From Microbispora amethystogenes (GTDB lineage Bacteria; Actinomycetota; Actinomycetes; Streptosporangiales; Streptosporangiaceae), in assembly GCF_016863015.1 (NCBI RefSeq), contig NZ_BOOB01000053.1, forward strand, positions 1 to 64,000: a stretch of 64,000 bases of DNA. Direction: 5' to 3'. Positions 9,288 through 26,168 of the stretch are shown here, piece by piece (position 1 is the stretch's first letter; every line of letters starts with the position of its first letter). A program made the translations under genes and the position numbers. The notes beneath the pieces were generated by a model that did no database searches, had not been told where the DNA came from, and saw nothing but the letters and a program-made list of their open reading frames with translations.

Positions 9288-9301
9288 GACGCCTCCCGTC
9301 C

Positions 9302-9323
9302 AATTGTCTAGAATCAGACCATT
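9302..9323. promoter_or_regulatory. 22-bp palindrome, candidate operator
   Basis: AATTGTCT-AGAATC-AGACCATT: two 8-nt arms, 7 of 8 matching as an inverted repeat, 6-nt centre. It lies 14 nt upstream of the ligase start codon, between that operon and a divergent FadR-type regulator. Its position overlaps where RNA polymerase or the ribosome would load, so repression by the neighbouring regulator is a reasonable inference. Confidence 0.5.
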
Positions 9324-9514
9324 GAAGGCATGCAAGCACCCTGCTCCCCTCGTCGTCAACAACACCCGGGACGAACCTCCATCGCGTAGCGGGGCGCCGC
9401 CGCGCGACGGACCCGGCGGCCCCGCCGCTGGTCACCTGGGACGTACGAGGGCGTGGCGGGACGTGCCGGCACACGCGGTGCTTGGGCTGCGAAGGGGCGG
9501 AGGGACGGCGAGGC

Positions 9515-10258
9515 ATGGACAGCACCCCGGCGCGGGCGCCCGCTCCCGCGCCCATGTCGCTGCTGCGGCCGGTGCGGGCGGGCAACGCGTTCGAGGAGAC
9601 GGTCGAGCGCCTGCTCCAGGCCGTCAAGCTGGGAGTCGTCGCGCACGGGGAGAAACTGCCGCCCGAGCGGGAGCTCGCGGCCCGGCTCGGCATCAGCCGG
9701 GTCACCCTGCGCGAGGCGATCCGCGCCCTGCAGGAAGCCGGCTACCTCGACGTACGGCGGGGCAGGTACGGCGGCGCGTTCGTCGTCTACCGCCCGCCGA
9801 GCCCGCGCAAGGGCGACCTGCGCAGAGCGCTCACCCGGATGGGTGAGGACGAGCTCGAAGACGCCCTGACGTTCCGGATGGCCGTGGAGTGCGGGGCGGC
9901 CCGGGTCCTCGCGACGACCGAGCTGACCCCGGGTCAGCGGGAGACGCTGAAGGCCCGGCTGGCCGAGGTGAACGACGCCGCCCCGGCCGACTACCGCCGC
10001 AGGGACATCGCCTTCCACCTCGCCATCGCGGAGCTGACCGGCTCACCGCTGCTGGCCGCCGCGTGCGCGGACGCCCGGCTGCGGGTCACCGACCTGCTCA
10101 ACGCGATCCCGGTGCTGGGTCCCAACATCGAGCACGCGGCGGTGCAGCACGCCGCCATCGCCGCCGCGATCCTGGACGGCGACCCCGAGGCGGCGGGCCG
10201 GGCGGTGGCCGAGCACCTGGAGGGGACGGCCGCGCTGCTGCGCGGCTTCCTCGCATGA
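9515..10258 (+). CDS. GntR-family (FadR/FCD subfamily) transcriptional regulator
   Basis: 247 residues from ATG at 9515 (MDSTPARAP); an in-frame upstream start exists but GGCGAGG before this ATG and the family's usual length favour it. Winged HTH at about residues 26-90 (GEKLPPERELAARLGISRVTLREAIRALQEAGYL). The C-terminal FCD ligand domain (about 100-245) keeps metal/ligand-binding positions: Glu in RMAVECGAAR, Asp and His in RRDIAFHLAIAELTGS, and His in VQHAAIAAAI. Divergent from the gamma-glutamyl ligase operon, so it probably represses or activates it in response to an amine-derived ligand. Confidence 0.88.
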   Translation: MDSTPARAPAPAPMSLLRPVRAGNAFEETVERLLQAVKLGVVAHGEKLPPERELAARLGISRVTLREAIRALQEAGYLDVRRGRYGGAFVVYRPPSPRKGDLRRALTRMGEDELEDALTFRMAVECGAARVLATTELTPGQRETLKARLAEVNDAAPADYRRRDIAFHLAIAELTGSPLLAAACADARLRVTDLLNAIPVLGPNIEHAAVQHAAIAAAILDGDPEAAGRAVAEHLEGTAALLRGFLA

Positions 10259-10318
10259 CCGTTGCCTGACCACTCCGAGGTGAGCCGTAGCATCGGAGAC
10301 CAGGGGACTGATATCTGT

Positions 10319-11200
10319 ATGGCCGACTGGTTTCGCGAACGCGTCGTCGACGCGCACCGCCTGCCGTTGTTCTGCTTCTTCGTGGCGCTGATCACGGCGT
10401 TCCTCTGCACGCGGGTGAACGTGCGGCTGATCAGGGCCCGGACGCGGTGGTTCGGCAACGTCAGCGTCGGCGAGATGCACATCCACCACGTCGTCTTCGG
10501 GGTGGTGCTCACCCTGCTCGGCGGGGTGGCCGGGCTGGTCCTGTCGGGCGTCTCCCAGGGGTGGTACTCGTTCAGTTCGGCCGTCTTCGGCGTGGGCGCG
10601 GCCCTCGTGCTCGACGAGTTCGCGCTGATCCTGCACCTGCGCGACGTCTACTGGCAGGAGGAGGGCCGCACCTCGGTCGACGCGGTCTTCGTGGCGATCG
10701 CGGCCACCGGACTGCTCCTGTTCGGGCTGCACCCGCTCGGCTGGGACGGCGGCACCACCGCCGGCGACTGGACCGCCCCCGCCTTCCTCGTGGTCAACCT
10801 CGTCTTCGCCGTGATCACCCTGCTCAAGGGGAAGATCTGGAGCGGCCTGCTGGGACTGTTCGTGCCGCCGTCGCTGTACGTGGGAGCGGTGCGGGTGGCC
10901 CGCCCCGGCTCGCCGTGGGCCCGCTGGTTCTACTCGGAGCGGGCGCGGCGGCCCCGGCCCCGCCTCATGGCCAAGGCGGTCCATCGCGAGGAGCGCTGGC
11001 GCAGGCCGGTCATCCGGGTGAAGATCGCCGTGCAGGAGTTCGTCTCCGGCCGTCACGACCTGCCCGCGCCCGCGTCGCCCGCGTCGCCCGTACGGCGTCA
11101 CCGGCGGCGGGCGATGGCCCCGCGTCCCCGGCGGGGCGCGGAGCGGGGCGCCGAGCGGGCCGGGCGGCACTGGCGGTCGGGACGCCCCCGCGCCCGCTGA
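10319..11200 (+). CDS. Conserved integral membrane protein
   Basis: 293 residues from ATG at 10319 (MADWFRERVV), which lies after AGGGGA and gives an N-terminus just before the first membrane helix. At least five hydrophobic segments occur between residues about 18 and 190. A motif of interest is GEMHIHHVVFGVVL, with three His in a helix, and DEFALILHLRDVYW, which could bind metal. The last ~90 residues are very basic and Arg/Pro/Ala-rich, cytoplasmic, ending in RSGRPRAR. I do not recognise a named family; similar unnamed membrane proteins are common in actinomycetes. It starts about 60 nt after the GntR gene and may be cotranscribed. Confidence 0.75.
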   Translation: MADWFRERVVDAHRLPLFCFFVALITAFLCTRVNVRLIRARTRWFGNVSVGEMHIHHVVFGVVLTLLGGVAGLVLSGVSQGWYSFSSAVFGVGAALVLDEFALILHLRDVYWQEEGRTSVDAVFVAIAATGLLLFGLHPLGWDGGTTAGDWTAPAFLVVNLVFAVITLLKGKIWSGLLGLFVPPSLYVGAVRVARPGSPWARWFYSERARRPRPRLMAKAVHREERWRRPVIRVKIAVQEFVSGRHDLPAPASPASPVRRHRRRAMAPRPRRGAERGAERAGRHWRSGRPRAR

Positions 11201-11280
11201 GCCTTCGACGAAAAGAATTTCGCCCGATTATGTGGGTATTTCACCCTAGGTAAATGCTGTCGGGGGGCGGGAGGGTCGGC

Positions 11281-11475
11281 ATGGAGTCTCGCGGGCGATT
11301 CGTGTTCCGGAAAATGGCGGCGCAACTCAAACAGGAGGCGGCGTTCCTCACCGGCGACCGCCTGATGGCGGCCGAGGCGCGCACCGAGGAGGCCGAGGCC
11401 TCCCTGTGCCTCACGTGGTACGAGATCATGGACACCATCAGGGACCTCCGGCTGCTGTACGGCGTACGAGGCTGA
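11281..11475 (+). CDS. Small hypothetical helical protein
   Basis: 64 residues from ATG at 11281 with a good ribosome binding site (GGGAGGG, 6 nt). An in-frame ATG 27 nt earlier lacks one. The protein is charged and probably all-helical (RKMAAQLKQEAAFL, RTEEAEASLCLTWYEI), with no signal or membrane segment. Just upstream, 11210-11260, the DNA is unusually AT-rich for this genome (AAAAGAATTTCG, TATTTCACCC), which could be its promoter. I do not recognise the family. Confidence 0.55.
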   Translation: MESRGRFVFRKMAAQLKQEAAFLTGDRLMAAEARTEEAEASLCLTWYEIMDTIRDLRLLYGVRG

Positions 11476-11618
11476 GGGGTCGCCCGCCGCTGTCGCCCGA
11501 GGTCGCCGGCCGGTCGGAGCCGTCGCCCAGAGGGGCGAAATCCCCGCGCGCACCGGCTTTTCCGCTGCGTTAGGGTCCACAGAAGATCGCAGAGTGGGCT
11601 CTCGCGGAGGGGGTTGCG

Positions 11619-13415
11619 GTGGCGACGGACGGCGACGACCCCGGCGACGGTTCACCCGCCCGGCAGCGCAAGGCGTCCCTGGGGGACCGGGCCGCCTGGC
11701 GGGTGCTGCTCGACCAGGTCCGTCCTCATCGGCGGACGCTTCTGCTGGGCGGCCTGCTCAGCCTCGCCGGCAGCCTCGCCGGGCTCGCGATGCCGCTGAT
11801 GGCCAAGCAGGTGATCGACGCGTTCGGCGCGGGCGGCACGACGACCGGGCCGGTGCTCGGCCTCTCGGCCGCGGTCATGGCCGGCGCGCTGGTCGCGGCG
11901 GCGGGGCGCTTCCTGCTCGAACGCATGGGCGAGACCATCGTGCTCGCCTCGCGCCGGACGCTGGTGGACCGCATCCTGCGGCTCAGGGTCCCCGAGGTGG
12001 ACCGGCTCAGCCCCGGCGACCTGCTGTCCCGCGTCGGCTCCGACACCACCCTGCTGCGGGCCGTCTGCACGGACGCGCTGGCGTCGCTGGTCGGAGGCGC
12101 GTTCACGTTCCTCGGAGCGGCCGTGATGATGGCGGTCATGGACGGCCTGCTGCTCGGGGTCACCCTGGCCGTCGTCGCCCTGGTCGCGGTCATGGGCGTG
12201 GTGATCGCCCCGCGCATCCGGCGGGCCTCGCTGCGGGCCCAGGAGGCGCTGGGCGAGATGGGCTCGATGCTCGACCGGGCGCTTCAGGCGTTCCGTACGG
12301 TCAAGGCCAGCGGCGCGGAGATCCGCGAGACCGCGGTGGTGACCGCCGCGGCCACCGAGGCGCGCGACCGCGGGGTGGCCGCCGCCGGATGGACGTCGCT
12401 GGCCGGGGTCGGCGCGTGGACGTCGATCCAGCTCGCGTTCCTCGCTGTGCTGGGGGTCGGCGGCGCGCGGGTCGCGTCGGGGGAGATGGAGATCTCCGCC
12501 CTGATCGCGTTCCTCATGTACCTGTTCTACCTGGTCTCCCCGATCGGGCAGGTCATCCAGAGCCTCACCCAGATGCAGAACGGCCTGGCCGCGGTCACCC
12601 GCATCCAGGAGATCGCCCTGCTGCCCGCCGAACCGGTCGCCGCGCCCGCGCCCATGCCCACCCAGGCGGGCGGCGACCCCGTCGGGGTGACGTTCACCGA
12701 CGTCGTCTTCCGGTACGACGAGGACCGGCCGATCGTGCACCACGGCGTGACCTTCGAGGTGCCCGCGGGCGGCATGACCGCGCTGGTCGGCCCTTCCGGC
12801 GCGGGCAAGTCGACGGTGTTCGGCCTGATCGAGCGGTTCTACGAGGCGGACGAGGGCGCCATCGCGATCGGCGGGCGCGACATCCGCGACTGGCCGCTCG
12901 GCGAGCTGCGGTCCATGCTCGGGTACGTCGAGCAGGACGCCCCCGTGCTCGCCGGGACGCTGCGGGAGAACCTGGTCTTCGGCGCGCCGGAGGCGACCGG
13001 CGAGGAGATCGCCCGCGCACTGGCCCGCACCCGCCTCGACGACCTGGTCGAGCGGCTGCCCGAAGGGTTGGAGACGCCGGTCGGGCACCGCGGCGTCCTG
13101 CTGTCGGGAGGGGAGCGGCAGCGGGTGGCCATCGCCAGGGCGCTGCTGCGCCGGCCGAGGCTGCTGCTGCTCGACGAGGCGACGTCCCAGCTCGACGCCG
13201 TCAACGAGCTGCGCCTGCGGGAGGTCGTGGCGGAGGTGGCGCGGGAGACGACGGTCCTGGTGATCGCCCACCGCCTGTCCACCGTGACCGGGGCCGACCG
13301 GATCGTGGTGATGGAGGCCGGGCGCGTGCGGGCCTGGGGCACCCACGACGAGCTCGTCGCGGCCGACGCGCTCTACCGGGAGCTCGCCGCCACGCAGTTC
13401 CTCGTCGCGACCTGA
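11619..13415 (+). CDS. ABC exporter, fused permease and ATPase
   Basis: 598 residues, GTG start behind GCGGAGG. N-terminal six-helix exporter domain (about 35-320), C-terminal ATPase (about 355-595). Seen: Walker A GPSGAGKST near residue 392, ABC signature LSGGERQRVAIARALL, Walker B LLLLDEATSQLD with the catalytic Glu, and H-loop VIAHRLSTV. All motifs are canonical, so it probably works as a homodimer. It resembles multidrug/lipid exporters (MsbA/LmrA/BmrA type); the substrate cannot be told from sequence. It stands alone, 144 nt after the small gene and about 300 nt before an SDR. Confidence 0.92.
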   Translation: MATDGDDPGDGSPARQRKASLGDRAAWRVLLDQVRPHRRTLLLGGLLSLAGSLAGLAMPLMAKQVIDAFGAGGTTTGPVLGLSAAVMAGALVAAAGRFLLERMGETIVLASRRTLVDRILRLRVPEVDRLSPGDLLSRVGSDTTLLRAVCTDALASLVGGAFTFLGAAVMMAVMDGLLLGVTLAVVALVAVMGVVIAPRIRRASLRAQEALGEMGSMLDRALQAFRTVKASGAEIRETAVVTAAATEARDRGVAAAGWTSLAGVGAWTSIQLAFLAVLGVGGARVASGEMEISALIAFLMYLFYLVSPIGQVIQSLTQMQNGLAAVTRIQEIALLPAEPVAAPAPMPTQAGGDPVGVTFTDVVFRYDEDRPIVHHGVTFEVPAGGMTALVGPSGAGKSTVFGLIERFYEADEGAIAIGGRDIRDWPLGELRSMLGYVEQDAPVLAGTLRENLVFGAPEATGEEIARALARTRLDDLVERLPEGLETPVGHRGVLLSGGERQRVAIARALLRRPRLLLLDEATSQLDAVNELRLREVVAEVARETTVLVIAHRLSTVTGADRIVVMEAGRVRAWGTHDELVAADALYRELAATQFLVAT

Positions 13416-15817: not shown

Positions 15818-15840
15818 TCCGGCGGTACGGCCGGCGGACG

Positions 15841-16878
15841 TCAGACGGGCGTGGCCTGGTAGTCGGGCCGCCGGTCGATGCGCCGCCTGACCGCGTCGGA
15901 TCCGAAGCGGTAGTCGATGCGGCGGGTCGCCTCCGCCCAGTCCGCCCAGGTGCGCACCGCGGAAAGGGTCTCGACGACGAAGGGGTCGCTCCACCGCGCG
16001 ACCGCGCGTGCCCACAGCACCGCCGGATCCTCGCTCAGCAGGCTGCCGACGGTGCCCTCGTAGATGGGCATGGCGCGCACCTCTCCGTCGGGCTCGATCT
16101 GCAGCAGGGGGAACCCGTAGCGCTCCACGAGTTCGGGCCGCATCAGCAGCATCGCGTTGTCGTTGGTGTTCACCACGACCGAGGAGGGAACCCGGGCCCG
16201 CAGCGTGTCGTGGTGCTCGGGGCTGGTGAGCGTCCGGACCTGCTCGCCGGTGAGGAGCTCCAGGTCGCCGAAGCCGGGCCTGCTGGCCAGCCCCGACGGT
16301 ATCGCGGCCCCGAACGTGAGGAACCGGATCCGCTCGAACCGGGAGGTGACGGTCGTGCAGAGGTCGCCCATCTGGTCGAAGTTGCCGCGCATCACCGCGC
16401 AGTCGACTCCGAACATCACGGGGGCGTCGCCGCGGGCCGTCCGGCGGCGCGAGACGTCGTCGAGGAGGGCCAGCGCGTTCATCGCGCGGTCGAAGGAGCC
16501 GGCCCTGCCCCTGATCCGGTCGTGGGTGGCGGCGTCGGCTCCGTCGACGCTCACCGTGATCCTCGTGAACACCCGGGCCGCCTCCTCGGCCGCCGCCGGT
16601 GTCAGCGTCCACCCGCTGGTGTAGAGATTGACCTCGACACCGGCCCGGGAGATGCGCTCGGCCACCTCGTGAACGTCCCTGACGAGCAGGGGCTCGCCAC
16701 CCGCGAACTCGACCGCCCGCGGGCCCAGGGAGACGATCGCGTCGGCCACCCTGAGCATGTCCTCGTGGCCCAACTGCCGGGCGGGCCGCCTGCCCGACTC
16801 CGAATAGCAGTGGGTGCAGCGCAGGGGGCACGCGTACGTGATGTCCCAGATGATGTCGGTAGGTCCGGGGTGTCGCAT
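15841..16878 (-). CDS. Radical SAM protein with degenerate SPASM-like tail, RiPP cluster
   Basis: 345 residues. The radical-SAM [4Fe-4S] motif CPLRCTHC (Cys 17, 21, 24) and the SAM-binding GGEP (60-63) are intact, with a TIM-barrel-like body to about residue 240. The C-terminal IEPDGEVRAMPIYEGTVGSL (261-280) matches the 'PDG.V..C......G' start of a SPASM domain, but Met sits where Cys is expected and there are no cysteines after residue 174, so it should not hold auxiliary clusters. Good ribosome binding site (GGAAGG). It is the last gene of the lanthipeptide-type operon, 70 nt after the exporter. It may epimerise, crosslink or otherwise modify the precursor peptides; which one is unknown. 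Confidence 0.85.
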   Translation of the reverse strand: MRHPGPTDIIWDITYACPLRCTHCYSESGRRPARQLGHEDMLRVADAIVSLGPRAVEFAGGEPLLVRDVHEVAERISRAGVEVNLYTSGWTLTPAAAEEAARVFTRITVSVDGADAATHDRIRGRAGSFDRAMNALALLDDVSRRRTARGDAPVMFGVDCAVMRGNFDQMGDLCTTVTSRFERIRFLTFGAAIPSGLASRPGFGDLELLTGEQVRTLTSPEHHDTLRARVPSSVVVNTNDNAMLLMRPELVERYGFPLLQIEPDGEVRAMPIYEGTVGSLLSEDPAVLWARAVARWSDPFVVETLSAVRTWADWAEATRRIDYRFGSDAVRRRIDRRPDYQATPV

Positions 16879-16890
16879 GTGCAGGTCCTT

Positions 16891-16929
16891 CCGTGCTGTC
16901 CTGAGGGGTCGCCGTGCTGTCCTGAGGGG
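16891..16929. repeat. Two 18-bp direct repeats, 21-bp period
   Basis: CCGTGCTGTCCTGAGGGG occurs at 16891-16908 and again at 16912-16929, exact. The pair fills most of the short gap between the exporter gene's end and the radical SAM gene's ribosome binding site. It may be a simple slip duplication. Confidence 0.75.
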
Positions 16930-16948
16930 CGCGAAGATCGCTCCGGGA

Positions 16949-18763
16949 TCACTCCGGCAGCCGGTCCCGTCCCGGGGCGTCGTGGTTCCAGTGACCGACC
17001 AGGTCGGCGTAGAGAGGCGAGCGCGTCACGAGGTCCCGGTGCGTGCCGGTGATCGCGCGTGCGCCGTCCAGGAGCAGGACGCGGTCGGCCCGGGCGGCCG
17101 AGCTGACGCGGTGGGCGATGACGATGAGCGTCCCCTGCCTGGCCGCGAAGGCGGCCTCGGCCCGTGCCTCGCCGGCGGGGTCGAGGTGGCAGGTGGCCTC
17201 GTCGAGGATCACGATCCGCGCCCGGGAGGCGTACGCGCGCGCGAGGGTGACGAGCTGCCGTTCCCCCGCGGACAGGGTGGACGGTTCGTCGATCGCGCCG
17301 TCGAGCCCGCCCAGCCGCGTGAGCAGCGGCCCGGCGCCGACGGCGTCCGCCGCCGCGAGGAGCCGCTCGTCGGCGGTCGCCTCCCCGGCGGGGCGGAGAT
17401 AGCCCAGGTTCTCGCGGACCGTCCCGGCGAAGACGTACGCCTCCTGGGGCACCAGCGCCACGACCTCGTGCAGGTGCCGCCGGGGCACCGCGTCCAGCGC
17501 GAGCCCGCCGAGCCGGACCACGCCCTCGGTGGGCCGGCGGAGCCCGGACAGCAGCATGGCCAGGGTGGACTTGCCGATGCCGCTGGGGCCGACCACGACC
17601 AGGTGCTCGCCTTCGCCGACCGTGAGGTCGAGTTCCCGTACGACCGGCTCCGCCCGGGGCGAGTAGGCGAAGGTCAGGCGGTCCGTCCGGAGGTCGTGGC
17701 CGACCGGCGTCTCCGGGACGCACGCGGGCTCGTCCCGCGGCGGGAGTGGCGTCACGACGTCGCCGAGCCGCTGGGCGGTCACCGCCAGGGTGATCCCCCA
17801 GGAGCCGACGGTGCCGAGGAGGGTGCGCACGGCGGGCTCGAGACCGGTGGACAGATAGGTCAGTGCCCCCACGATCTCCCCGGCGGTCAGCCGGCCGCTC
17901 GCCGTCAGCGGCCCGGCCGCGAGCAGCAGCGCGACCATGGGCACGTGCGCGCCGATCGTGACGACCAGCCGTCGCCTGGCGCCCGCCCACGCGAGCGCGC
18001 GCATCGCCGCGGCCTGCGCGGCCACGAGCGACCGGACCGACTCCCTCGCCTGGTCCCTCGCCCCGCAGGCCGCGATGTCCCGCAGCCCCCCGAGGGCGGG
18101 AGTGACCTCGGCCGTCAGCCTCTCCCCGGCGAGGAGGAGGTCGCGCTGACGCGCGGCGAGCAGGCGCAGCAGCCGGACGAACGCGAACGCGGCGACCAGC
18201 ACGGGCCCGGCGACGACGGCCGCGGCGAGCGGAGACAGCAGCAGGAGCCCCGCGACGGCGGCGACCACGGCGACCCCGACCTGCCGGGTGTTTCTCAGCA
18301 CCGCCGACAACAGGGCGCGGACCGTCTCGATCTGCTCGGTGAGGCGGTTGACGGCGGCACCGTCGGGCGCCTGCTCCCCGGCCGACGCGTGGGTCACGGT
18401 CGCCTCGACCACGGCGCGTACCAGGTCGTCGCGGAGAGGCTCGACCACCGCGGCGAGGTGCGGGAACATCAGCCGGGTCGCGATCGCTCCCACCAGCATC
18501 GCCGCGGCCAGCAGGCCGAGCAGGACGAGGCCCAGCCCGGGGCGCCCGGCGCGGAAGCCGCGGTCGACCGCCGTCGCGACCAGCAGGCCGGACAGCAGAG
18601 CCGGAGCCGCCTCGACGATCGACCAGGCCATGACCAGGGCGAGGGGGCGCGGGCGCCGGCGCAGCAGGGCCGCCAGCAGCCGCCACGGCCCCTGAGCGCG
18701 ATCGCCGGCGGGCGGAGGAGAGGCCGGCGGGGACTGCCGCCGGGCGGTGGTCACCGCGGACAC
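16949..18763 (-). CDS. ABC exporter subunit B (canonical ATPase), RiPP cluster
   Basis: 604 residues from GTG at 18763, which follows AGGAGG and overlaps the preceding exporter gene by 13 nt. N-terminal six-helix domain (about 30-320), C-terminal ATPase: Walker A GPSGIGKST near residue 388, signature LSAGERQLVTLARAY, Walker B IVILDEATCHLD with catalytic Glu, H-loop VIAHRVSS. With the upstream subunit it should form a heterodimeric exporter for the modified peptides. No C39 peptidase domain is present, so leader removal must be done elsewhere, probably by the S9 peptidase of the cluster. Confidence 0.9.
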   Translation of the reverse strand: MSAVTTARRQSPPASPPPAGDRAQGPWRLLAALLRRRPRPLALVMAWSIVEAAPALLSGLLVATAVDRGFRAGRPGLGLVLLGLLAAAMLVGAIATRLMFPHLAAVVEPLRDDLVRAVVEATVTHASAGEQAPDGAAVNRLTEQIETVRALLSAVLRNTRQVGVAVVAAVAGLLLLSPLAAAVVAGPVLVAAFAFVRLLRLLAARQRDLLLAGERLTAEVTPALGGLRDIAACGARDQARESVRSLVAAQAAAMRALAWAGARRRLVVTIGAHVPMVALLLAAGPLTASGRLTAGEIVGALTYLSTGLEPAVRTLLGTVGSWGITLAVTAQRLGDVVTPLPPRDEPACVPETPVGHDLRTDRLTFAYSPRAEPVVRELDLTVGEGEHLVVVGPSGIGKSTLAMLLSGLRRPTEGVVRLGGLALDAVPRRHLHEVVALVPQEAYVFAGTVRENLGYLRPAGEATADERLLAAADAVGAGPLLTRLGGLDGAIDEPSTLSAGERQLVTLARAYASRARIVILDEATCHLDPAGEARAEAAFAARQGTLIVIAHRVSSAARADRVLLLDGARAITGTHRDLVTRSPLYADLVGHWNHDAPGRDRLPE

Positions 18764-20550
18764 GACGCCTCCTGCCGCGAGGCGACCCCGGCGGGCTCGC
18801 CGCCGTGCGGTTCCCCGCGGGAATCCGGCGCATCCGGGGCGAAGAGGTCTCGGTAGTCCCGGTGCCGCCACAGCTCCCGGTGGGTGCCGCGGCCGCGTAC
18901 CCGCCCCGCCTCCAGCCAGATCACCAGGTCCGCCCTGGCCGCCGTGGCCGGACGGTGGGCGACGACCAGGCGCGTCCTGCCGCGCATCCCCTCCACGAGG
19001 GTGCGGGTCACCTGCGCCTCGGTCACGGTGTCGAGGCCGCTGGTGGCGTCGTCGAGGATGGTCAGGCGGGCCCGCCGCAGCAACGCGCGGGCGAGCCCGA
19101 GCCGCTGGATCTCGCCGCCGGACAGCGGTGCCCCGGCCGACGGGGTGTCGTACCCGAGGGGGAGACGGGAGACCACGTCGTCGACCTCCGCGGCCCTCGC
19201 CGCCGCGCGGACGGCCTCGCGCGTCGTCCCGGCCGTGCCGTACGCGATGGCCGAGGCGATGTCCCCGCCGAGGAGGGCGGGTCGTTCGAACGCGTAGGCC
19301 ACGGCGTCGCGCAGGCACCCCGGCTCGAGGTCGCTCAGGCTCAGCCCGTCGAGCAGCACCCGGCCACGATCGGGCTCCGTCAGCCGCCCGGCGAGCATGG
19401 CGAGAGTGGTCTTGCCGGCGCCGGAGCGGCCGACGACCGCGGTCAGCGCCCCGGCGGGAATCTCCAGGTCGACGTCGTCGAGCACCCGGGCGTCTCCCCG
19501 CGTGACGGTCACGCCGCGGAAGGACAGCGCCCCCGGGCCGTCCGGCAACCGGCGGCGGCCCGCGGGCAGGACCGGCAGCGCGAGCACCTCCAGCACCCGG
19601 ACGGCCGCGGACCGGCCGTAGGCCAGGCCCAGCAGCGGGTCGATCTGCTCGACGAAGGTCAGGCCGAGCGCGGCGTATCCGGCCACGGCCACGAGTGCGC
19701 CCGGAGTGAGCCTGCCCTCGGCGACGCCGAGCCCGGCGACCGCCAGCACGAGGATCTCCACGAGCGGCATCAGCAGCATGATCTGCCACACGGTGCGCGA
19801 CTGCGCCCTCCAGAGGGCGTGCCCGGTGGAGGAGAGGTCCGCCAGCGGCCGGAGCACACGGTCGATCTCCCGGCTCGCGGTGCCCGCGGCCCTGACCGTG
19901 CGGATGCCGGCCAGGGTCTCGGTGAGGCGGGCGGCCAGGCGGCCCTGCGCGCTCTGGTACTCGTCGTACAGCCCCGACACACGGGAGACGAACACGCGCA
20001 GCACGACGACCAGGACGGGCGTCCCGGCGAGGAAGGCGAGGCCCGCGCGCGGGTCGACGGCGAACAGCGCGACGACGGCGCCGGCGGAGGCGGCCACGCC
20101 CGTGAGCGTCCCCAGCAGGGTCACCGGCGCGGACCCGGCCGTCGCCGTGTTGCTCACGAGACGGTTGACGAGCTCACCGGTGGAGAAGCGGGTGGCGCCG
20201 GAGACGTCGGCCGACAGGAGGTGACCGGCGACACGCAGGCGCAGCGTACCGATCGCCGAGGCTGTCGCGGTGGTGCTCGTGATTCCGGTGGCGACCTCGG
20301 CCAGCGCGGCGCCGGCGAGCAGGAGCGCGAGGTACGCGGTCGCCGTCAGCGCCCCCCGGCCGGTGACGACGGCGTTCACGGCGGCGGCGAGCGCCGCGGG
20401 CAGGGCAAGCGCGACGGCGGTCGTGGCGATCGAGCCGGTCGCGGTCGCGGCCAGCGGCATCCAGGAGTCCCGGCTAAGGGCGGCGATGAGACGGTCGCCG
20501 TGCCCGTGGCTCACCTGCTCTTCGGATGATCTCGGGGCGGGGCCGGGCAT
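18751..20550 (-). CDS. ABC exporter subunit A (degenerate ATPase site), RiPP cluster
   Basis: 599 residues from ATG at 20550 (MPGPAPRSSEEQ); a start 36 nt earlier is possible but less well placed. Six-helix domain about 25-310, then ATPase with Walker A GRSGAGKTT near 371 and signature LSGGEIQRLGLARALL. Walker B reads LTILDDATSGLD, so the catalytic Glu is Asp, and the H-loop is VVAHRPAT. One hydrolytically weak and one canonical site is the usual pattern of heterodimeric exporters. It overlaps the next subunit gene, so they are translationally coupled. Confidence 0.9.
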   Translation of the reverse strand: MPGPAPRSSEEQVSHGHGDRLIAALSRDSWMPLAATATGSIATTAVALALPAALAAAVNAVVTGRGALTATAYLALLLAGAALAEVATGITSTTATASAIGTLRLRVAGHLLSADVSGATRFSTGELVNRLVSNTATAGSAPVTLLGTLTGVAASAGAVVALFAVDPRAGLAFLAGTPVLVVVLRVFVSRVSGLYDEYQSAQGRLAARLTETLAGIRTVRAAGTASREIDRVLRPLADLSSTGHALWRAQSRTVWQIMLLMPLVEILVLAVAGLGVAEGRLTPGALVAVAGYAALGLTFVEQIDPLLGLAYGRSAAVRVLEVLALPVLPAGRRRLPDGPGALSFRGVTVTRGDARVLDDVDLEIPAGALTAVVGRSGAGKTTLAMLAGRLTEPDRGRVLLDGLSLSDLEPGCLRDAVAYAFERPALLGGDIASAIAYGTAGTTREAVRAAARAAEVDDVVSRLPLGYDTPSAGAPLSGGEIQRLGLARALLRRARLTILDDATSGLDTVTEAQVTRTLVEGMRGRTRLVVAHRPATAARADLVIWLEAGRVRGRGTHRELWRHRDYRDLFAPDAPDSRGEPHGGEPAGVASRQEASCPR

Positions 20551-20621
20551 CGTCTCACTCTCTTTCCGGTCGGCCGCCGCGAACACCGTCGGGCGCGGCG
20601 GGGCGAGCTGGGAGGGATGTC

Positions 20622-20663
20622 GCGCCCAGGGACGACCGGCCGAGGACGGCCGTCCCTGGGCGC
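20622..20663 (-). terminator. Strong hairpin after the precursor genes
   Basis: GCGCCCAGGGACG (20622-20634) and CGTCCCTGGGCGC (20651-20663) are a perfect 13-bp inverted repeat with a 16-nt GC-rich loop. It sits in the 208-nt gap between the last precursor gene and the exporter genes, with no U-run. It could be a partial terminator or an mRNA-stabilising end that keeps precursor transcript above exporter transcript. Confidence 0.6.
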
Positions 20664-20758
20664 TCGCGGCGGCTCCGTCACGTGGACGGCTCCGTCACGC
20701 CGCGGGTCCTGCCGAGGCAGGTGAGCGGACAGGAGCGGAGCGCCTGCTCAGCAGGTGC

Positions 20759-20887
20759 TCAGATCTGGGTGATGCCACAGGTGCCGGTGGCCCCGTAGCA
20801 GGACCTGCCGCAGGTGACGGTGCACGCCATCAGCCGGCTCTCCTCGGGGGCGGGAAGCATGTCCAGTGCGTTGATGTCGAGTTCCAC
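20759..20887 (-). CDS. Lanthipeptide-type precursor peptide 1 (third in transcription order)
   Basis: 42 residues, GTG start with a near-perfect ribosome binding site (AAGGAGG). The leader reads MELDINALDMLPAPEES and is almost identical in the two genes upstream. The core region (from about residue 18) is RLMACTVTCGRSCYGATGTC with Cys at 22, 26, 30 and 37, and Ser/Thr at 23, 25, 29, 34, 36 and 40; it ends ITQI. Thr or Ser directly precedes Cys three times (TC, SC, TC). These are the residues a lanthionine synthetase dehydrates and cyclises. Gene product, maturation and ring pattern are inferred from cluster context. Confidence 0.85.
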   Translation of the reverse strand: MELDINALDMLPAPEESRLMACTVTCGRSCYGATGTCGITQI

Positions 20888-20949
20888 GGTTCCTCCTTGA
20901 TTCGTTTTCTCGCGCTTCGCGGTGTTGTGTGTCCGGTGCCCCTGACCGA

Positions 20950-21072
20950 TCAGGGCTGGTCCGTAAGGCTCGCGGCGCCGCAGGTCCAGCGGGTGCAGGT
21001 GAACTGGCACGGGTACAGCTCGCTCTCCTCGGGGACGGGGAGCATGTCCAGGGCGTTGATGTCCAGTTCCAC
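20950..21072 (-). CDS. Lanthipeptide-type precursor peptide 2
   Basis: 40 residues, GTG start after AGAGGAACC. Leader MELDINALDMLPVPEES, differing by one residue from precursor 1. Core ELYPCQFTCTRWTCGAASLT then DQP: Cys 22, 26 and 31; Ser/Thr 25, 27, 30, 35 and 37. It has two Thr-Cys dipeptides and lacks the third Cys-containing segment of the other two, having AAS there. It lies 15 nt downstream of precursor 3 and 62 nt upstream of precursor 1. Role as RiPP substrate is inferred from the adjacent synthetase, protease and exporter. Confidence 0.85.
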   Translation of the reverse strand: MELDINALDMLPVPEESELYPCQFTCTRWTCGAASLTDQP

Positions 21073-21087
21073 GGTTCCTCTGGCGCG

Positions 21088-21216
21088 TCAGTAGTCGGTG
21101 CTCCAGCAGGTCCAGCCGCCGCAGGTCCTGCCTCCGGCGCAGGTGATCTGGCACGGGTACAGCTCGCTCTCCTCGGAGGCGGGGAGCATGTCCAGGGCCT
21201 TGACGTCGAGTTCCAT
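21088..21216 (-). CDS. Lanthipeptide-type precursor peptide 3 (first in transcription order)
   Basis: 42 residues, ATG start after AAAGGAG. Leader MELDVKALDMLPASEES. Core ELYPCQITCAGGRTCGGWTC then WSTDY: Cys 22, 26, 32 and 37; Ser/Thr 25, 31, 36, 39 and 40. Three Thr-Cys dipeptides. The sequence C-x-x-T-C at 22-26 is shared by all three precursors, and Ser17 plus Leu19 are invariant. It is the first precursor after the S9 peptidase gene, separated from it by a strong hairpin. The boundary between leader and core is not certain: candidate cuts are after Pro12, or near residues 17-21. Confidence 0.85.
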   Translation of the reverse strand: MELDVKALDMLPASEESELYPCQITCAGGRTCGGWTCWSTDY

Positions 21217-21269
21217 GCGGTTCTCCTTTCGTACCGGGCCACCGCTCTGTCATGCGGCGGCTCCTGGTG

Positions 21270-21307
21270 CCGCAGGCTCGCCGCGGATGCGAAGGGCGAG
21301 CCTGCGG
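21270..21307 (-). terminator. Strong hairpin between S9 peptidase and precursor genes
   Basis: CCGCAGGCTCGCC (21270-21282) and GGCGAGCCTGCGG (21295-21307) form a perfect 13-bp inverted repeat with a 12-nt loop. It follows the peptidase stop by about 50 nt and precedes the first precursor by about 50 nt. It could end the synthetase-peptidase transcript, or protect a processed precursor mRNA 5' end. Confidence 0.6.
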
Positions 21308-21353
21308 GGCCTCGGGGCCGTACGCGGCCTGGCGTACGGCGGTGCTCCGGGCG

Positions 21354-23150
21354 TCAGCTCCACCGAGCGGAGCCGGTGCCCAGGAAGTGGACGAGGCGGT
21401 CACGGACGAGATGGGCGTCGCGGCCGGTCAACGGGTCGTGCCCCGCGCCGGTGACCTCCAGGTAGGTGAGTTCGGCGCCCGGCGGGGCGATCTCGGCGAG
21501 CCGGTCGCGCAGCCGCCGGGAGTGGCTCACGGGAATCACGTCGTCGTGTTCTCCGTGGACCACGAGAAGCGGCAGCCGCAGACGGCCGGCCAGCCGCAGC
21601 AGGTCACGGGGGCCGAGTTCGTCGTCCGTGATCTCCTCCAGGCCGCCCAGGCGGTCGAGCATCGCCCGGACCGTGGCCGGGCCGTCGGTGTAGAGCTCCC
21701 GCCCCGACAGGAACGGCGCGACCACTGCGGCCCGCGACCACAGGTGCGGGTCCGCGGCGACCGCCAGGAGCGCGAGGTACGCCCCGTAGCTGGCGCCGTA
21801 CAGCATCGGGCGGCTGGCGCCGAGCCCGCGTCCGGCGCCGACGACGCGGCCCAGGTGAAGGATGTCCGCCAGGTCGGGCCCGCCCCACGCCCCGCGGATC
21901 GCGTCGCGGTGCGCCGCCCCGTAGCCGGTGCTTCCGCGCTGGTTGGGCGCGACGACGGCGATGCCCCGCGCGGCCATCTGCTGGAAGAGGGGATCGAAGG
22001 AGAGCTGCCAGGCGGCCTCCGGCCCTCCGTGCAGCGCCAGCACCACCTGCCGGCTCCGGGCCGGGTCGCCGTAGACCACGGCCTCGATGCGGCCGCCGGG
22101 ACCGTCGTAGCTCCGCGCCCGGGCGGCCGCCCGCTCACCGCCTCGCCGGGTGGCGGGCGCACCGGACGCGTTCAGCACGGTCAGCGGGGCGTAGGGACGG
22201 TCCGGCGTCGTGTGGATCACGTGCAGGCCGGCCGTGCTCCAGTGGGCACTCGGATACAGCGCCCCGGCCGGAAGGGCGGCCTCCCGGATCTCCTCCGTCG
22301 TCAGGTCGTACACGAGCAGGTGGGAGCGGACCCCGCGGGTGACCAGGAGCGCCAGCCGCCTTCCCTCCGGATCGAAGGCCAGCGGTGTGACCGCGCCGTC
22401 GATCTCGTTCAACGGGCGGGGAAAGACGGTGGGGCCGTCGTCGTCCGTGCCGCGCACGCCCAGGCGATAGGCGCCCTCGTGGCGGAGCGTCGTGAGCAGC
22501 ACACCGCCCCGCGGGGCCGCGAGCAGGAGGTGCTCGCCGCCGGCCAGGCCCTGCAGCGGCGACAGCGAGCCGTCCGCCAGATCCAGCACCACGGTGCCCG
22601 GCTCGTCCCCGTGGCGGGACAGGGCCAGGCGCCGGCCGAACGCGTCGAGCCAGACGCCCCCTCCGAGGACGGCCGGGACGGTGGCGACCGCTTCCAGGGG
22701 ACCGGGCTCCGCGGGCACGCGCCACACCGTCGTCCGGCCCTCCCCGGCGCCGTGGAAGGCCAGGGCGGCGGCTCCCTCCGGCCCGCCGGCCACCAGCCGG
22801 AATCCGCCGCCGTGGAAGGTGGTCGGCATCGGCGCCGGCGCCTCGCCGGGGGTGATGAGGAGCAGGCGGTGCACGCCTCCCGCCTGGGCGCGGCCCAGCA
22901 GGATCCTGCCGCCGTCGGTCGGGACGACCGTGCTCCAGGAGCTCTCGCCGGCCGGCTGGCCCAGCGTCATGGGCACCGGAGTCCCGCCGCCGAGATCCCA
23001 CAGCTCCGGGACGAGGGGACCACGACCACGGGCGGACAGGCAGGCGGCGTACCGCCCGCGCCGGGAGAACCGGAAGTTGATCCGCCGCGTCTCGGAGGAG
23101 CGGTGCGCGGTCTCCTCGCCGGCCGTGCCGGTGATGACGGGGGCGGTCAT
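21354..23150 (-). CDS. S9 (prolyl oligopeptidase family) peptidase, candidate leader protease
   Basis: 598 residues. N-terminal ~340 residues form a beta-propeller-like region; the C-terminal alpha/beta hydrolase has the oxyanion segment LALHGGPEAAW, nucleophile Ser in LYGASYGAYL (about 450), Asp in VHGEHDDVIPVSHS (about 537) and His in GAGHDPLTG (about 571). ATG start overlaps the synthetase stop by 4 nt (ATGA). No signal peptide, so it is cytoplasmic. S9/POP enzymes such as FlaP remove leaders in class III lanthipeptide clusters and prefer to cut after Pro; all three precursors carry an invariant Pro12. Its substrate here is inference. Confidence 0.87.
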   Translation of the reverse strand: MTAPVITGTAGEETAHRSSETRRINFRFSRRGRYAACLSARGRGPLVPELWDLGGGTPVPMTLGQPAGESSWSTVVPTDGGRILLGRAQAGGVHRLLLITPGEAPAPMPTTFHGGGFRLVAGGPEGAAALAFHGAGEGRTTVWRVPAEPGPLEAVATVPAVLGGGVWLDAFGRRLALSRHGDEPGTVVLDLADGSLSPLQGLAGGEHLLLAAPRGGVLLTTLRHEGAYRLGVRGTDDDGPTVFPRPLNEIDGAVTPLAFDPEGRRLALLVTRGVRSHLLVYDLTTEEIREAALPAGALYPSAHWSTAGLHVIHTTPDRPYAPLTVLNASGAPATRRGGERAAARARSYDGPGGRIEAVVYGDPARSRQVVLALHGGPEAAWQLSFDPLFQQMAARGIAVVAPNQRGSTGYGAAHRDAIRGAWGGPDLADILHLGRVVGAGRGLGASRPMLYGASYGAYLALLAVAADPHLWSRAAVVAPFLSGRELYTDGPATVRAMLDRLGGLEEITDDELGPRDLLRLAGRLRLPLLVVHGEHDDVIPVSHSRRLRDRLAEIAPPGAELTYLEVTGAGHDPLTGRDAHLVRDRLVHFLGTGSARWS

Positions 23151-25930
23151 CGGGCCGCCCCGTCGCCGGCGTCGGCCATCCAGGAGCGGGGCCCGCCGTG
23201 GCGCAGCCGGTGGAGGAAGTCCAGCACCCCTGCCAGGCCGGTGTTCCAGCCGGCGCTCAGCTCGAACCCGTTCTCGTCGGGCACCAGCAGCAACCCGTCG
23301 CGCGACACCGCCCGCGCCCACAGGTACGCGGCCAGTTCCCCGGCCTGGTCGTGGTAGGCCGGTTCGCCGAGCAGGTCGGCCATGTCGAGCAGGAACTGCC
23401 CGTCACCGGCCAGGCCGTGACACTGGGAGCTTCCCGAGGAGACCCGGCTCAGGTGGACGGTGCGCGCCGCCCCCCTGGCGGCGTCGAGGAACCGCCGGTC
23501 GCCGGTGGCGCGGTGCAGCCGGATCAGGAAGGTGCCGACGCCCGAGGAGCCGTTGCACCAGTGCGGCATCCTGGCGCCGCCGGCCGGACCCTGGTCCCAC
23601 CACGCGGCGCCGTCCATGATCTCGGCCGCCTCCACCAGCGTGCGCCCACCGGCCGCGGCCGTCTCCAGGCAGTCGTCGCGGCCGAGAGCCAGGCCGGCGG
23701 CGAGCAGGAAGGCCCCCACGCCGGCGACGCCGTGGGCGAAGCCGTAGTGCACGACTCCGGCCAGCGAGGACGCGAAGGTCGCGGGGATCGGCCACAGCAC
23801 CGTCCCGGCTGTGCGCTCGGCCGCGGCGAGCAGACTGTCGGCGCAACGGCCGGCCTTGTCGCGGAAGCGGCCGTCCCCGGTGGCCCGCCAGAAGTGCAGC
23901 AGCGTCAGCCCCGTCCCCGACAGGCCGTGGCACACGTCGGGGTTCGGCCAGCTGTCCGGCAGTCCGGACGCCAGTTCGACGCCCGCGGCGCACATGTCGT
24001 CGTCACCGAGCACCCGGCCCGCCTCGTGCAGTCCCCAGGCGATGCCCGCCCGCCCGAAGTAGAGCCCGGGGGAGGGCCGTGGCTCGCGGTCGAGGCGCCG
24101 CAGCGTCCACCCCGCCGCGTCCGCGAGCGTGCCGGTGACATCGGTCCGCCACGTCGCCGGAAGACCGGGGTCGCGGGCGAAAGGACCGTCGAGCAGGGAC
24201 GCCAGCACCGTCAGGACCCCCGCCGAGCCGTACTGCACCGCGCAGGGGTCCGCGTCGGCCCCGAACCCGGTGACGGGCCACAGGCGCAGCGGGTCCGGCC
24301 CGCCGGGCGCCGGCCGGGCCATGGTCCTTACGAGGTGGGCGACCCCGTCCCGCAGCAGGCGGTCCCCTTCGTCCGCACCGAGACGGCGCACCGGCCGCAC
24401 GGAGACGAACGGCAGGGGCTCGGCGTCCAGTTTGGCGAGGAACTCCTCGACGCGCCGCAGATCCCAGCGTTCCGACCGTTCCTCGCGCATCAGTCCCGAG
24501 ATCATCGGAGCGAACGCCTCGGCCACCGGATCGCCCGCCGTCGCCACGCTCACGAGCGTCCGCACCCGGTCGCCCCAGGACCGTTCCTCGTCCGGCCCGT
24601 CGTCCGCCAGCATGGGCGGGCAGCCCGTGGTCAGGAAGAACACGGTGGCCCCGAGCGCGTACAGGTCGGCCTCGACGCCGGGAGCCGGAGCGTGCCTGGG
24701 CGCGTTCATCTGCTCGGGCGGTGCGAAGCCCGGAGTGAAGGCTCTCGCCACGGGCGTGCCGGGGATGGCGGCCATCTCCAGGTCGACGAGGCGGCAGCCG
24801 CCGCCGGCGGTGACGAGGACGTTGTTGGGCGTGAGGTCCCGCAGCACGTAGCCCTGCTCGTGCACGGCCGCGACCAGGGCGGTCAGCCCGCGCACCACAG
24901 TGAGCACCTCGTCGTGCCCCCGCCGGTCCGGGCCGGTTCGCTCGCCGGCCCAGACGGTGAGCATGGTCCCGTCGAGATGCTCCTGTACGAGGAACAGGTT
25001 GTCGCTCTGCTCGAACAGGTCCACCTTGCGCGCCGTGATCCCCGGCGGGCCGAACAGGTCGAGCATGGCGGCCTCGTGACGGAGCTGGTCGCACTCGTCA
25101 CGGCCCTGCAGGGTGGAACCGAGGTGCGGGCGCGCCTGCTTGACGACGACCCTGGCCCCCGAGAGCCGGTCCTCGGCGAGGAACACGCCGCCTTTCGCGC
25201 TGTGCCGGATCGCCTGCCGCACCACGAACCGGTCCGCCAGCAGCACCGCCTCGGGCGCGGTGGTGCGCGCCGGCGCCCGCCCCGAAGGGAACGGGCTGAC
25301 CGCCCAGGCCGGCGGCGAGTACCAGGCGTTGCGGCTGTCCTTCACGGTCGTGCCGTCGGGGGCGACCAGAAGGGAGGCGTAGGTCCCGTCGTTGTCGAGC
25401 ACGCTCGTGGCCGAGAACACGCCGTAGCGGTAGTGGACCGGGCTCCCGGGCCGATAGGGCCGGTCGGACAGGATCGGCGGGCCGGGCAGGCCGTAGGTGG
25501 CGGAGTGCAGCTCCTCGGCGATCGACACGGCCGCGGCGTCGTCGGGCGGATACACCGTGATGAACTTGCCGAGCGTTCCGCGGTCGACGTCCCTCGACAG
25601 CAGGCCGCTCAGCTCCTCGAACGTCGCGGCGAACTTGAAGGGCACCCGGCGCCGCACCAGCACTTCGGCCGTCCGCGCCAGCACGACCGCGGCCGACAGC
25701 TGCGTCGCCGAGACGTGCAGTTTCCACCCCTGCGCCGGCATCGCGCACCCGGCCGGCGTCACGTACGTCCACGGCGTGCCGGAGTGGATCTCCCAGTCCC
25801 GGCCGTTCCGCGTCTCCTCACCCGCCGAGCGGGACTCCGTCCCCCGGCGCACGGCGGCCATGACGATGTCCGCGAGCAGGTGAGAGTCCGCGCCGGTGCC
25901 TTCGGCCACGCCCGCGCTGCCTGTGTTCAC
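23147..25930 (-). CDS. LanL/LanKC-like lanthionine synthetase (lyase-kinase-cyclase)
   Basis: 927 residues from GTG at 25930, with AGGAG about 10 nt upstream; ATG at 25864 is an alternative. Three domains: N-terminal lyase-type region (about 45-225, GWKLHVSAT, KFITVYPPDD, YRYGVF), Ser/Thr-kinase domain (about 230-500: Lys264 in VVVKQ, LRDLTPNN with Asp365 and Asn370, LVDLE with Asp383), and LanC-like cyclase (about 560-910). The cyclase keeps HWCNGSSGVG (Cys792) and QCHGLAG (Cys837, His838), the zinc ligands expected in class IV LanL and missing from class III LanKC. It phosphorylates Ser/Thr of the precursors, eliminates phosphate and adds Cys. First gene of the RiPP operon. Confidence 0.92.
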   Translation of the reverse strand: MNTGSAGVAEGTGADSHLLADIVMAAVRRGTESRSAGEETRNGRDWEIHSGTPWTYVTPAGCAMPAQGWKLHVSATQLSAAVVLARTAEVLVRRRVPFKFAATFEELSGLLSRDVDRGTLGKFITVYPPDDAAAVSIAEELHSATYGLPGPPILSDRPYRPGSPVHYRYGVFSATSVLDNDGTYASLLVAPDGTTVKDSRNAWYSPPAWAVSPFPSGRAPARTTAPEAVLLADRFVVRQAIRHSAKGGVFLAEDRLSGARVVVKQARPHLGSTLQGRDECDQLRHEAAMLDLFGPPGITARKVDLFEQSDNLFLVQEHLDGTMLTVWAGERTGPDRRGHDEVLTVVRGLTALVAAVHEQGYVLRDLTPNNVLVTAGGGCRLVDLEMAAIPGTPVARAFTPGFAPPEQMNAPRHAPAPGVEADLYALGATVFFLTTGCPPMLADDGPDEERSWGDRVRTLVSVATAGDPVAEAFAPMISGLMREERSERWDLRRVEEFLAKLDAEPLPFVSVRPVRRLGADEGDRLLRDGVAHLVRTMARPAPGGPDPLRLWPVTGFGADADPCAVQYGSAGVLTVLASLLDGPFARDPGLPATWRTDVTGTLADAAGWTLRRLDREPRPSPGLYFGRAGIAWGLHEAGRVLGDDDMCAAGVELASGLPDSWPNPDVCHGLSGTGLTLLHFWRATGDGRFRDKAGRCADSLLAAAERTAGTVLWPIPATFASSLAGVVHYGFAHGVAGVGAFLLAAGLALGRDDCLETAAAGGRTLVEAAEIMDGAAWWDQGPAGGARMPHWCNGSSGVGTFLIRLHRATGDRRFLDAARGAARTVHLSRVSSGSSQCHGLAGDGQFLLDMADLLGEPAYHDQAGELAAYLWARAVSRDGLLLVPDENGFELSAGWNTGLAGVLDFLHRLRHGGPRSWMADAGDGAAR

Positions 25931-26168
25931 GCCGCCGTCACTCCTGTCGTCTCGTCCACGAGGCTCGGTGTCGGATACCGTCCGGTCGTCCCGTCCGGCG
26001 CCGCGCTCCGCCTGAACGCAGAGTCGGCAACGGCCCTTGTCGGCGGCTAGTGACGACTTGTCTGCCGCGGTCTGAGAACGACTTAGTGGCACTGGTCGGC
26101 CCCTAAAGGGGATCCCAGGTGGGCCCGGCGGGTTTGCGCGGCGCGGGGCCTGGCGAGGATCAGGAGAC
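25931..26168. promoter_or_regulatory. Divergent promoter region, RiPP operon / hutI
   Basis: 238 nt between the synthetase start and hutI. ACGACTT occurs twice, at 26053-26059 and 26078-26084, 25 bp apart (about 2.4 helical turns), each followed by similar bases. A small palindrome CCCCTAAAGGGG lies just to the hutI side, around 26100-26111. These are candidates for regulator binding. No cluster-specific regulator gene is visible. I cannot place the -10 and -35 elements with confidence. Confidence 0.4.

Follow-up and report, generated by a model that had tools for sequence, protein, structure and literature searches.

A stretch of 64,000 nucleotides at the start of contig NZ_BOOB01000053.1 of Microbispora amethystogenes (the window; about 72% GC) carries a lanthipeptide-type gene cluster that includes a gene for a radical S-adenosylmethionine (rSAM) protein. 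What could an rSAM enzyme do in such a pathway? According to Walker et al. (PMC7268733), radical SAM enzymes, cytochromes P450 (P450) and further enzymes are known in lanthipeptide clusters, and no secondary modification of class IV lanthipeptides had been reported up to 2020. The sequences point to an answer to which we assign a probability of roughly 0.7: the cluster belongs to class IV (ALQxL type) and was inserted horizontally, and its rSAM protein would be a portable enzyme that modifies a dyad, an aromatic residue or His followed by Pro, at the start of the core peptides of class III, class IV and class V lanthipeptides.

Co-variation of the dyad and the radical SAM gene

The dyad was defined as Tyr, Trp, Phe or His followed by Pro, located before the first Cys of the core. 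To collect the precursors for counting, leader pattern and ribosome-binding site were used and the dyad was not; some of these precursors had first been noticed through patterns that included it. Some peptides with no recognised ribosome-binding site were left out of the table. Clusters were scored as rSAM+ or rSAM−, the latter meaning that no such gene lies within the fetched locus (about 11–24 kb); some of these genomes, for example G210 and G230, have one elsewhere. In 31/31 rSAM+ and 1/42 rSAM− clusters for which a precursor was detected, one or more precursors had the dyad. At the level of peptides the dyad was present in 38/41 and 2/71, respectively. The corresponding counts by class were 11/11 and 0/8 for class III, 24/26 and 2/49 for class IV, and 3/4 and 0/14 for class V, with one class V peptide of locus L151 filed under class IV by its leader pattern. 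In total, 87 loci were kept, 14 of which gave no precursor (one rSAM+, L102, and 13 rSAM−) and lie outside the 31 and 42. Three loci were dropped (L039, the same place as L064; L154, the same place as L040; and L145, which overlaps L050), and L011, on the same contig as L039, and L014 are not in the count table.

The dyad ranked strongest among 162 residue-group dipeptide patterns, and none of 5000 within-class label permutations matched it. On a tree built quickly from 65 class III/IV synthetases, eight independent pairs lie on supported branches; the dyad tracked the rSAM gene in 7.7 of them on average and ran opposite to it in none (p~0.0078), L050 being scored against the idea. Near-matched precursors illustrate the contrast. 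In class III, AHPCYSHVTSYNNTAC (L055, rSAM+) can be set against PRTCYSHVTSYNNTEC (L105, rSAM−), and AHPCYSHVTSYAGTC (L059, rSAM+) against SACYSHVTSYAGTC (L104, rSAM−). In class V, both EAFPPNSWLTSPLC (L048) and ERWPDQSYLTSPLC (L040), from rSAM+ loci, differ from EAVPTPDTSWLTSPLC of the rSAM− locus L146. Within a single genome, G210, the rSAM+ cluster of the class IV synthetase LanL has LFPC, and the two other LanL clusters fetched have LQVC, LQPC, LKYC and RAIC.

These data also bear on the idea that rSAM and precursor genes travel together as a module, so that the dyad would be the mark of a lineage of precursors instead of the target of an enzyme. The tree of rSAM proteins, in which the classes are intermixed as transfer would predict, fits such hitchhiking, as does the insertion of the window cluster as a unit (see below). 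Nevertheless, we hold it to be decidedly unlikely: the leaders of classes III, IV and V differ and the cores are class-specific, yet the dyad occurs within each class, near relatives differ mainly at this place, and the eight independent pairs on the synthetase tree speak against a common precursor lineage.

Several points weigh against an enzyme that targets the dyad. When the dyad is allowed anywhere in the core, it is found in 31/31 rSAM+ and 5/42 rSAM− clusters. Three of the 41 rSAM+ precursors have no dyad, namely window precursor 3, one of the two in L048 and the class IV precursor of L050; the latter locus is dyad-positive only through a class V precursor (GAWPRTSYLT) in the same locus. 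Conversely, in the rSAM− locus L081 two peptides carry the dyad ahead of the first Cys; they lie about 8 kb from the LanL of that locus and are of another kind than the precursor of that LanL. Since Pro can be followed by C, Q, D, P or R, no single crosslink partner emerges, and the dyad itself is the common element. Besides the CX3CX2C motif, the alignment of 27 rSAM sequences has no invariant candidate catalytic Cys. The controls are subsets: 53 of 83 listed LanL matches were fetched, rSAM+ loci included; the rSAM− class III controls are eight loci from a much longer match list; and the class V regions are 12 from 38 listed matches. Finally, most of the counting was done in the very data that had yielded the motif. 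The motif was first written as aromatic-Pro-Cys, before part of the loci were fetched, and was broadened to aromatic-Pro once other residues had been seen after Pro in L056 and in the class V rSAM+ loci. Among the loci fetched later, the dyad was present in all four rSAM+ loci (L111–L114); it was found in 0/7 class III rSAM− loci with a precursor (L106 gave none) and in 0/6 class V rSAM− loci with a precursor (four gave none).

Organization and insertion of the cluster

The cluster lies on the minus strand of the window and consists of five enzyme and transport genes and three precursor genes. They are transcribed in the order LanL, S9 peptidase, precursors 1 to 3, two ATP-binding cassette (ABC) half-transporters and rSAM protein:

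23147..25930, minus strand: class IV lanthionine synthetase LanL, 927 aa; lyase, kinase and LanC-like cyclase; GTG start behind AGGAG
21354..23150, minus strand: S9-family serine peptidase, probable leader protease; Peptidase_S9; ATGA overlap with LanL
21088..21216, minus strand: precursor 1, 42 aa, with LYPC; NF038157 25.6 bits (cutoff 19)
20950..21072, minus strand: precursor 2, 40 aa, GTG start, with LYPC; NF038157 26.1 bits (cutoff 19)
20758..20886, minus strand: precursor 3, 42 aa, GTG start, with RLMAC and no aromatic-Pro dyad; NF038157 29.7 bits (cutoff 19)
18751..20586, minus strand: ABC half-transporter 1; ABC_membrane, ABC_tran
16949..18763, minus strand: ABC half-transporter 2; ABC_tran, ABC_membrane; overlaps ABC half-transporter 1
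15841..16878, minus strand: radical SAM enzyme, 345 aa, CX3CX2C at residues 17–24; PF04055 79.6 bits
15837..26099, no strand: inserted segment of about 10.26 kb holding the whole cluster, from the flank alignment to L158

The first-pass annotation of this DNA had described a lanthipeptide-type operon of ribosomally synthesized and post-translationally modified peptides (RiPPs). This description agrees with the coordinates, gene order and domains found here, and so does its claim of three precursors of 40–42 residues. Its count of seven genes plus three precursors was wrong. The two gene overlaps that it noticed are real: LanL ends and the S9 gene begins within one ATGA at 23150–23147, and the second ABC gene starts at 18763, 13 bases within the first, whose stop is at 18751. 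The start given for ABC half-transporter 1, a GTG at 20586, is that of the longest open reading frame, and an in-frame ATG lies 36 bases downstream.

In the window the cluster separates hutF from hutI. Twelve of the 14 genomes of the same genus that were met were examined for this junction; hutF adjoins hutI in 11 of them, and the contig of the twelfth (L157) breaks off. The window flanks align to L158 at about 96%, up to position 15836 and from position 26100; the aligned parts are separated by 19 bases in L158 and by about 10.26 kb in the window. The cluster spans this insert from the stop codon of the rSAM gene to just upstream of LanL. It is evidently complete and, from these alignments, was inserted horizontally as a unit, to which the rSAM gene belongs because the cluster fills the insert from the rSAM stop codon on. 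The same combination of LanL, S9 peptidase, ABC pair, rSAM protein and matching precursors was found again in other genomes; since it recurs and the block is a discrete insert, the cluster is more than a chance arrangement.

Could the rSAM gene still be a passenger with no role in the pathway? Ten of the 22 LanL clusters of the nearest clade do lack it. The gene is intact, however, it lies inside the insert, and it turns up repeatedly next to lanthipeptide genes of three classes, with precursors that bear the dyad, all of which makes a mere passenger very unlikely.

A third ABC exporter gene is located outside the insert, at 11619–13415 on the plus strand of the window. Over most of its length it shares 55–66% identity with the single ABC exporter of class III loci, whether rSAM+ or rSAM−, and of the class V locus L048; it has no assigned precursor.

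Class of the synthetase and role of the S9 peptidase

The window synthetase scored 1072.1 bits with the class IV LanL model NF038150 (cutoff 650), and all three precursors passed the cutoff (19) of NF038157, the model for ALQxL class IV leaders. A single protein holds the RamC_N, Pkinase and LANC_like domains, together with the WCNG and CHG motifs, which we take to be the zinc-ligand positions. By these model scores the synthetase and its cluster are of the class IV lanthipeptide type. The class III (LanKC) model NF038151 gave 459.7 bits, below its cutoff of 575, and a class III assignment of the cluster was ruled out. Thus, of the earlier label "class III/IV synthetase" the class IV half stands, on the synthetase score and the precursor leaders, and the class III half falls.

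An S9 peptidase is encoded in 22/22 clusters of the nearest LanL clade, 12 rSAM+ and 10 rSAM−, as counted from the rows of the synthetase tree; one more, broken LanL of this clade (G242) is outside the count. Therefore, the peptidase is a standing part of this cluster type. It was rejected as an unusual feature, so that the "unusual enzyme set" proposed at first is reduced to the rSAM gene, which is the unusual part of the cluster even though its family also occurs in class III and class V clusters. The nearest solved structures to the window S9 enzyme, by sequence comparison with the PDB, are acylaminoacyl peptidases.

The peptidase raises an alternative explanation of the dyad, which could be a stop signal for the leader protease or for an aminopeptidase with no direct link to the rSAM protein. 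X-Pro bonds resist many aminopeptidases, and the dyad is positioned near the border of leader and core. Aminopeptidases trim class III/IV leaders, according to PMC10885120. A stop signal nonetheless appears unlikely. Within the same LanL clade, the S9 peptidase and the ABC pair are equally present in the 10 rSAM− clusters, and the dyad before the first Cys is absent from all of these; the rSAM− class III loci L103–L105 have a P450 and LanKC like their rSAM+ counterparts and lack the dyad. Its presence tracks the rSAM gene. Cleavage by the S9 enzyme after Pro, considered as the cause of the motif, was rejected on the same clade clusters, which have S9 and no dyad, and is also contradicted by rSAM+ class III clusters in which the dyad is present and no S9 was found.

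Lanthipeptide clusters that carry the radical SAM gene

Homologues of the rSAM protein were found at E<=1e-60 in 26/297 genomes of the window's family (27 matches). At E<=1e-50 the class as a whole gave 4/394 genomes, with two of the four belonging to the window's own family, and a second family gave 5/297 genomes, all of one genus. A scan of genome contigs gave a single relative, Microtetraspora glauca, a genome of the window's family, Streptosporangiaceae. Scores with curated synthetase models are available for the loci scanned. Relatives sit with class IV LanL proteins in L053, L056 and L113 (1084–1093 bits, cutoff 650), and with class III LanKC proteins in L012, L055 and L101 (953, 948 and 648 bits, cutoff 575). 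Most rSAM+ class III clusters also have a P450, and in the second family the rSAM gene accompanies another kind of class III LanKC, with no P450 match. An LxmK of 420.7 bits (cutoff 315) is found in the rSAM+ class V set of L048, together with HopA1, a luciferase-like oxidoreductase and a flavoprotein. In L040, HopA1-like DNA is accompanied by flavoprotein and luciferase-like genes; no model matched the LxmK candidate of this locus, and the LxmA leader model gave its precursor 20.7 against a cutoff of 25. Those class III precursors that were tested stayed below the cutoffs of all precursor models, and the L056 precursor matched no model. No LanL was found near the distant rSAM relatives of L014 and L102 (42–44%); at L102, where LanKC and HopA1 were queried too, these were absent as well.

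Some of these loci have features of their own. The class III cluster type with a P450 comprises L012, L013, L051, L052, L054, L055, L059 and L060, all rSAM+, and L103–L105, all rSAM−. L101, L111 and L112 have two LanKC genes each and share the precursor QWPCSNSYxSTxGQV, whose only Cys precedes all Ser/Thr of the core, so that the usual ring from Ser to a later Cys is impossible within it. In G262 (L050/L145) a class V set and a class IV LanL cluster are neighbours, with one rSAM gene close by; of the precursors found there, the class V one has the dyad and the class IV ones lack it. L114 has an ABC pair flanked by two rSAM copies in one class IV locus (6860–12579). The cluster of L064 (G153, Microtetraspora glauca) looks as though it had been split: about 12.5 kb separate LanL and S9 from the precursor and the rSAM gene, which follow downstream on the same strand. 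The LanL matches of G123, G147 and G283 (L085, L086, L099) are reading frames with one in-frame TGA.

The radical SAM protein

The CX3CX2C motif is invariant in the 27/27 aligned rSAM sequences. As for cysteines that could hold an auxiliary cluster, beyond position 174 every alignment column has Cys in fewer than 5 of the 27 sequences. C174 itself, inside a predicted helix, is present in 26/27, and C160 in 21/27; radical SAM peptide epimerases have a conserved H-donor Cys. An AlphaFold2 (AF2) model built with 29 sequences had a mean predicted local distance difference test (pLDDT) value of 87.9. Foldseek matched it to SkfB, SuiB, ChlB and EpeE, with a template modelling (TM) score for SkfB of 0.69 by query length over 307 columns. 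The C-terminal 165 residues matched no Pfam or NCBIfam model. The protein contains the stretch PDGxVRAMPxYEGTVGN, which we take to resemble the SPASM signature minus its cysteines; no family model confirms this likeness.

Of the 52 NCBIfam matches of the protein, none of the 25 listed reached its cutoff; the best among these was StsB, a sactipeptide maturase (99.2 bits, cutoff 625). This partial match, together with a Pro-Cys pair in 27/31 rSAM+ and 8/42 rSAM− clusters, would suit an enzyme that makes a sactionine-like thioether crosslink with the Cys of YPC. However, Pro is followed by Q, D, P or R in L056, L040, L048 and L050, and the family has no conserved auxiliary-cluster cysteines, which leaves such a thioether improbable. 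Cys crosslinking as the general reaction was rejected, given the varying residue after Pro.

Proposed pathway

Based on the genes, class, insertion and co-variation described above, we propose a pathway in which every catalytic step is one that we infer. LanL would bind the MELDxxALDMLP leader, phosphorylate Ser/Thr of the core, eliminate the phosphate and close thioether rings with the Cys of the TC-rich cores. The S9 peptidase, probably with housekeeping peptidases, would cut off the leader, and the ABC pair would export the product. The rSAM protein would be a portable tailoring enzyme acting on the aromatic/His-Pro dyad at the N-terminal edge of the core; its targets in the window would be precursors 1 and 2 (LYPC), and probably not precursor 3 (RLMAC). 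For its reaction we favour ring chemistry, at about even odds, since Pro is preceded only by residues that have an aromatic or imidazole ring; the ring might be crosslinked to Pro or to the residue that follows it, or be oxidised. Epimerisation seems rather unlikely, and some other chemistry equally so. A broader proposal, which we make tentatively and at slightly less than an even chance, is that a class-independent rSAM enzyme without auxiliary-cluster cysteines puts an undescribed modification on the core's N-terminal aromatic-Pro, and that it may have been acquired repeatedly by classes III, IV and V, with the dyad arising convergently in unrelated precursors.

If a dyad-directed rSAM enzyme is indeed at work, class IV lanthipeptides possess a dedicated tailoring enzyme, one enzyme family works for three lanthipeptide synthetase classes, and the aromatic-Pro dyad would tell from sequence alone which lanthipeptides get modified. 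Peptide engineering would gain a useful module in an enzyme that accepts different leaders and cores, and a radical SAM RiPP enzyme that lacks the ligands of auxiliary clusters would inform what such clusters do.

Comparison with known systems

In a full-text literature search, with most subscription papers outside it, no described compound family with this combination of genes was recognised, and the term ALQxL was not met. Among individual systems, flavipeptin, as PMC10885120 describes it, has a cluster-encoded leader protease of the S9 family, the prolyl oligopeptidase FlaP, as the window does. Flavipeptin is of class III, whereas the window cluster is of class IV, and among solved structures the window enzyme best matches acylaminoacyl peptidases. 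The class IV LanL/ALQxL systems (NF038150/NF038157) share synthetase class and leader family with the window, which differs from class IV lanthipeptides in carrying the rSAM gene. Class V clusters of the LxmK/HopA1 type hold relatives of the window rSAM gene and the same dyad, but their synthetase and leader differ from those of the window.

The SPASM-kind RiPP maturases (SkfB, SuiB, ChlB, EpeE, PqqE) have a similar overall fold by Foldseek and differ in that the rSAM family of the window protein has no conserved auxiliary-cluster cysteines. Enzymes that form three-residue cyclophanes (triceptides) use motifs whose first position is an aromatic residue. The likeness to the dyad lies in this first residue; for the rSAM family of the window protein, in contrast, the second residue is fixed as Pro, the third varies, and the auxiliary-cluster cysteines are absent.

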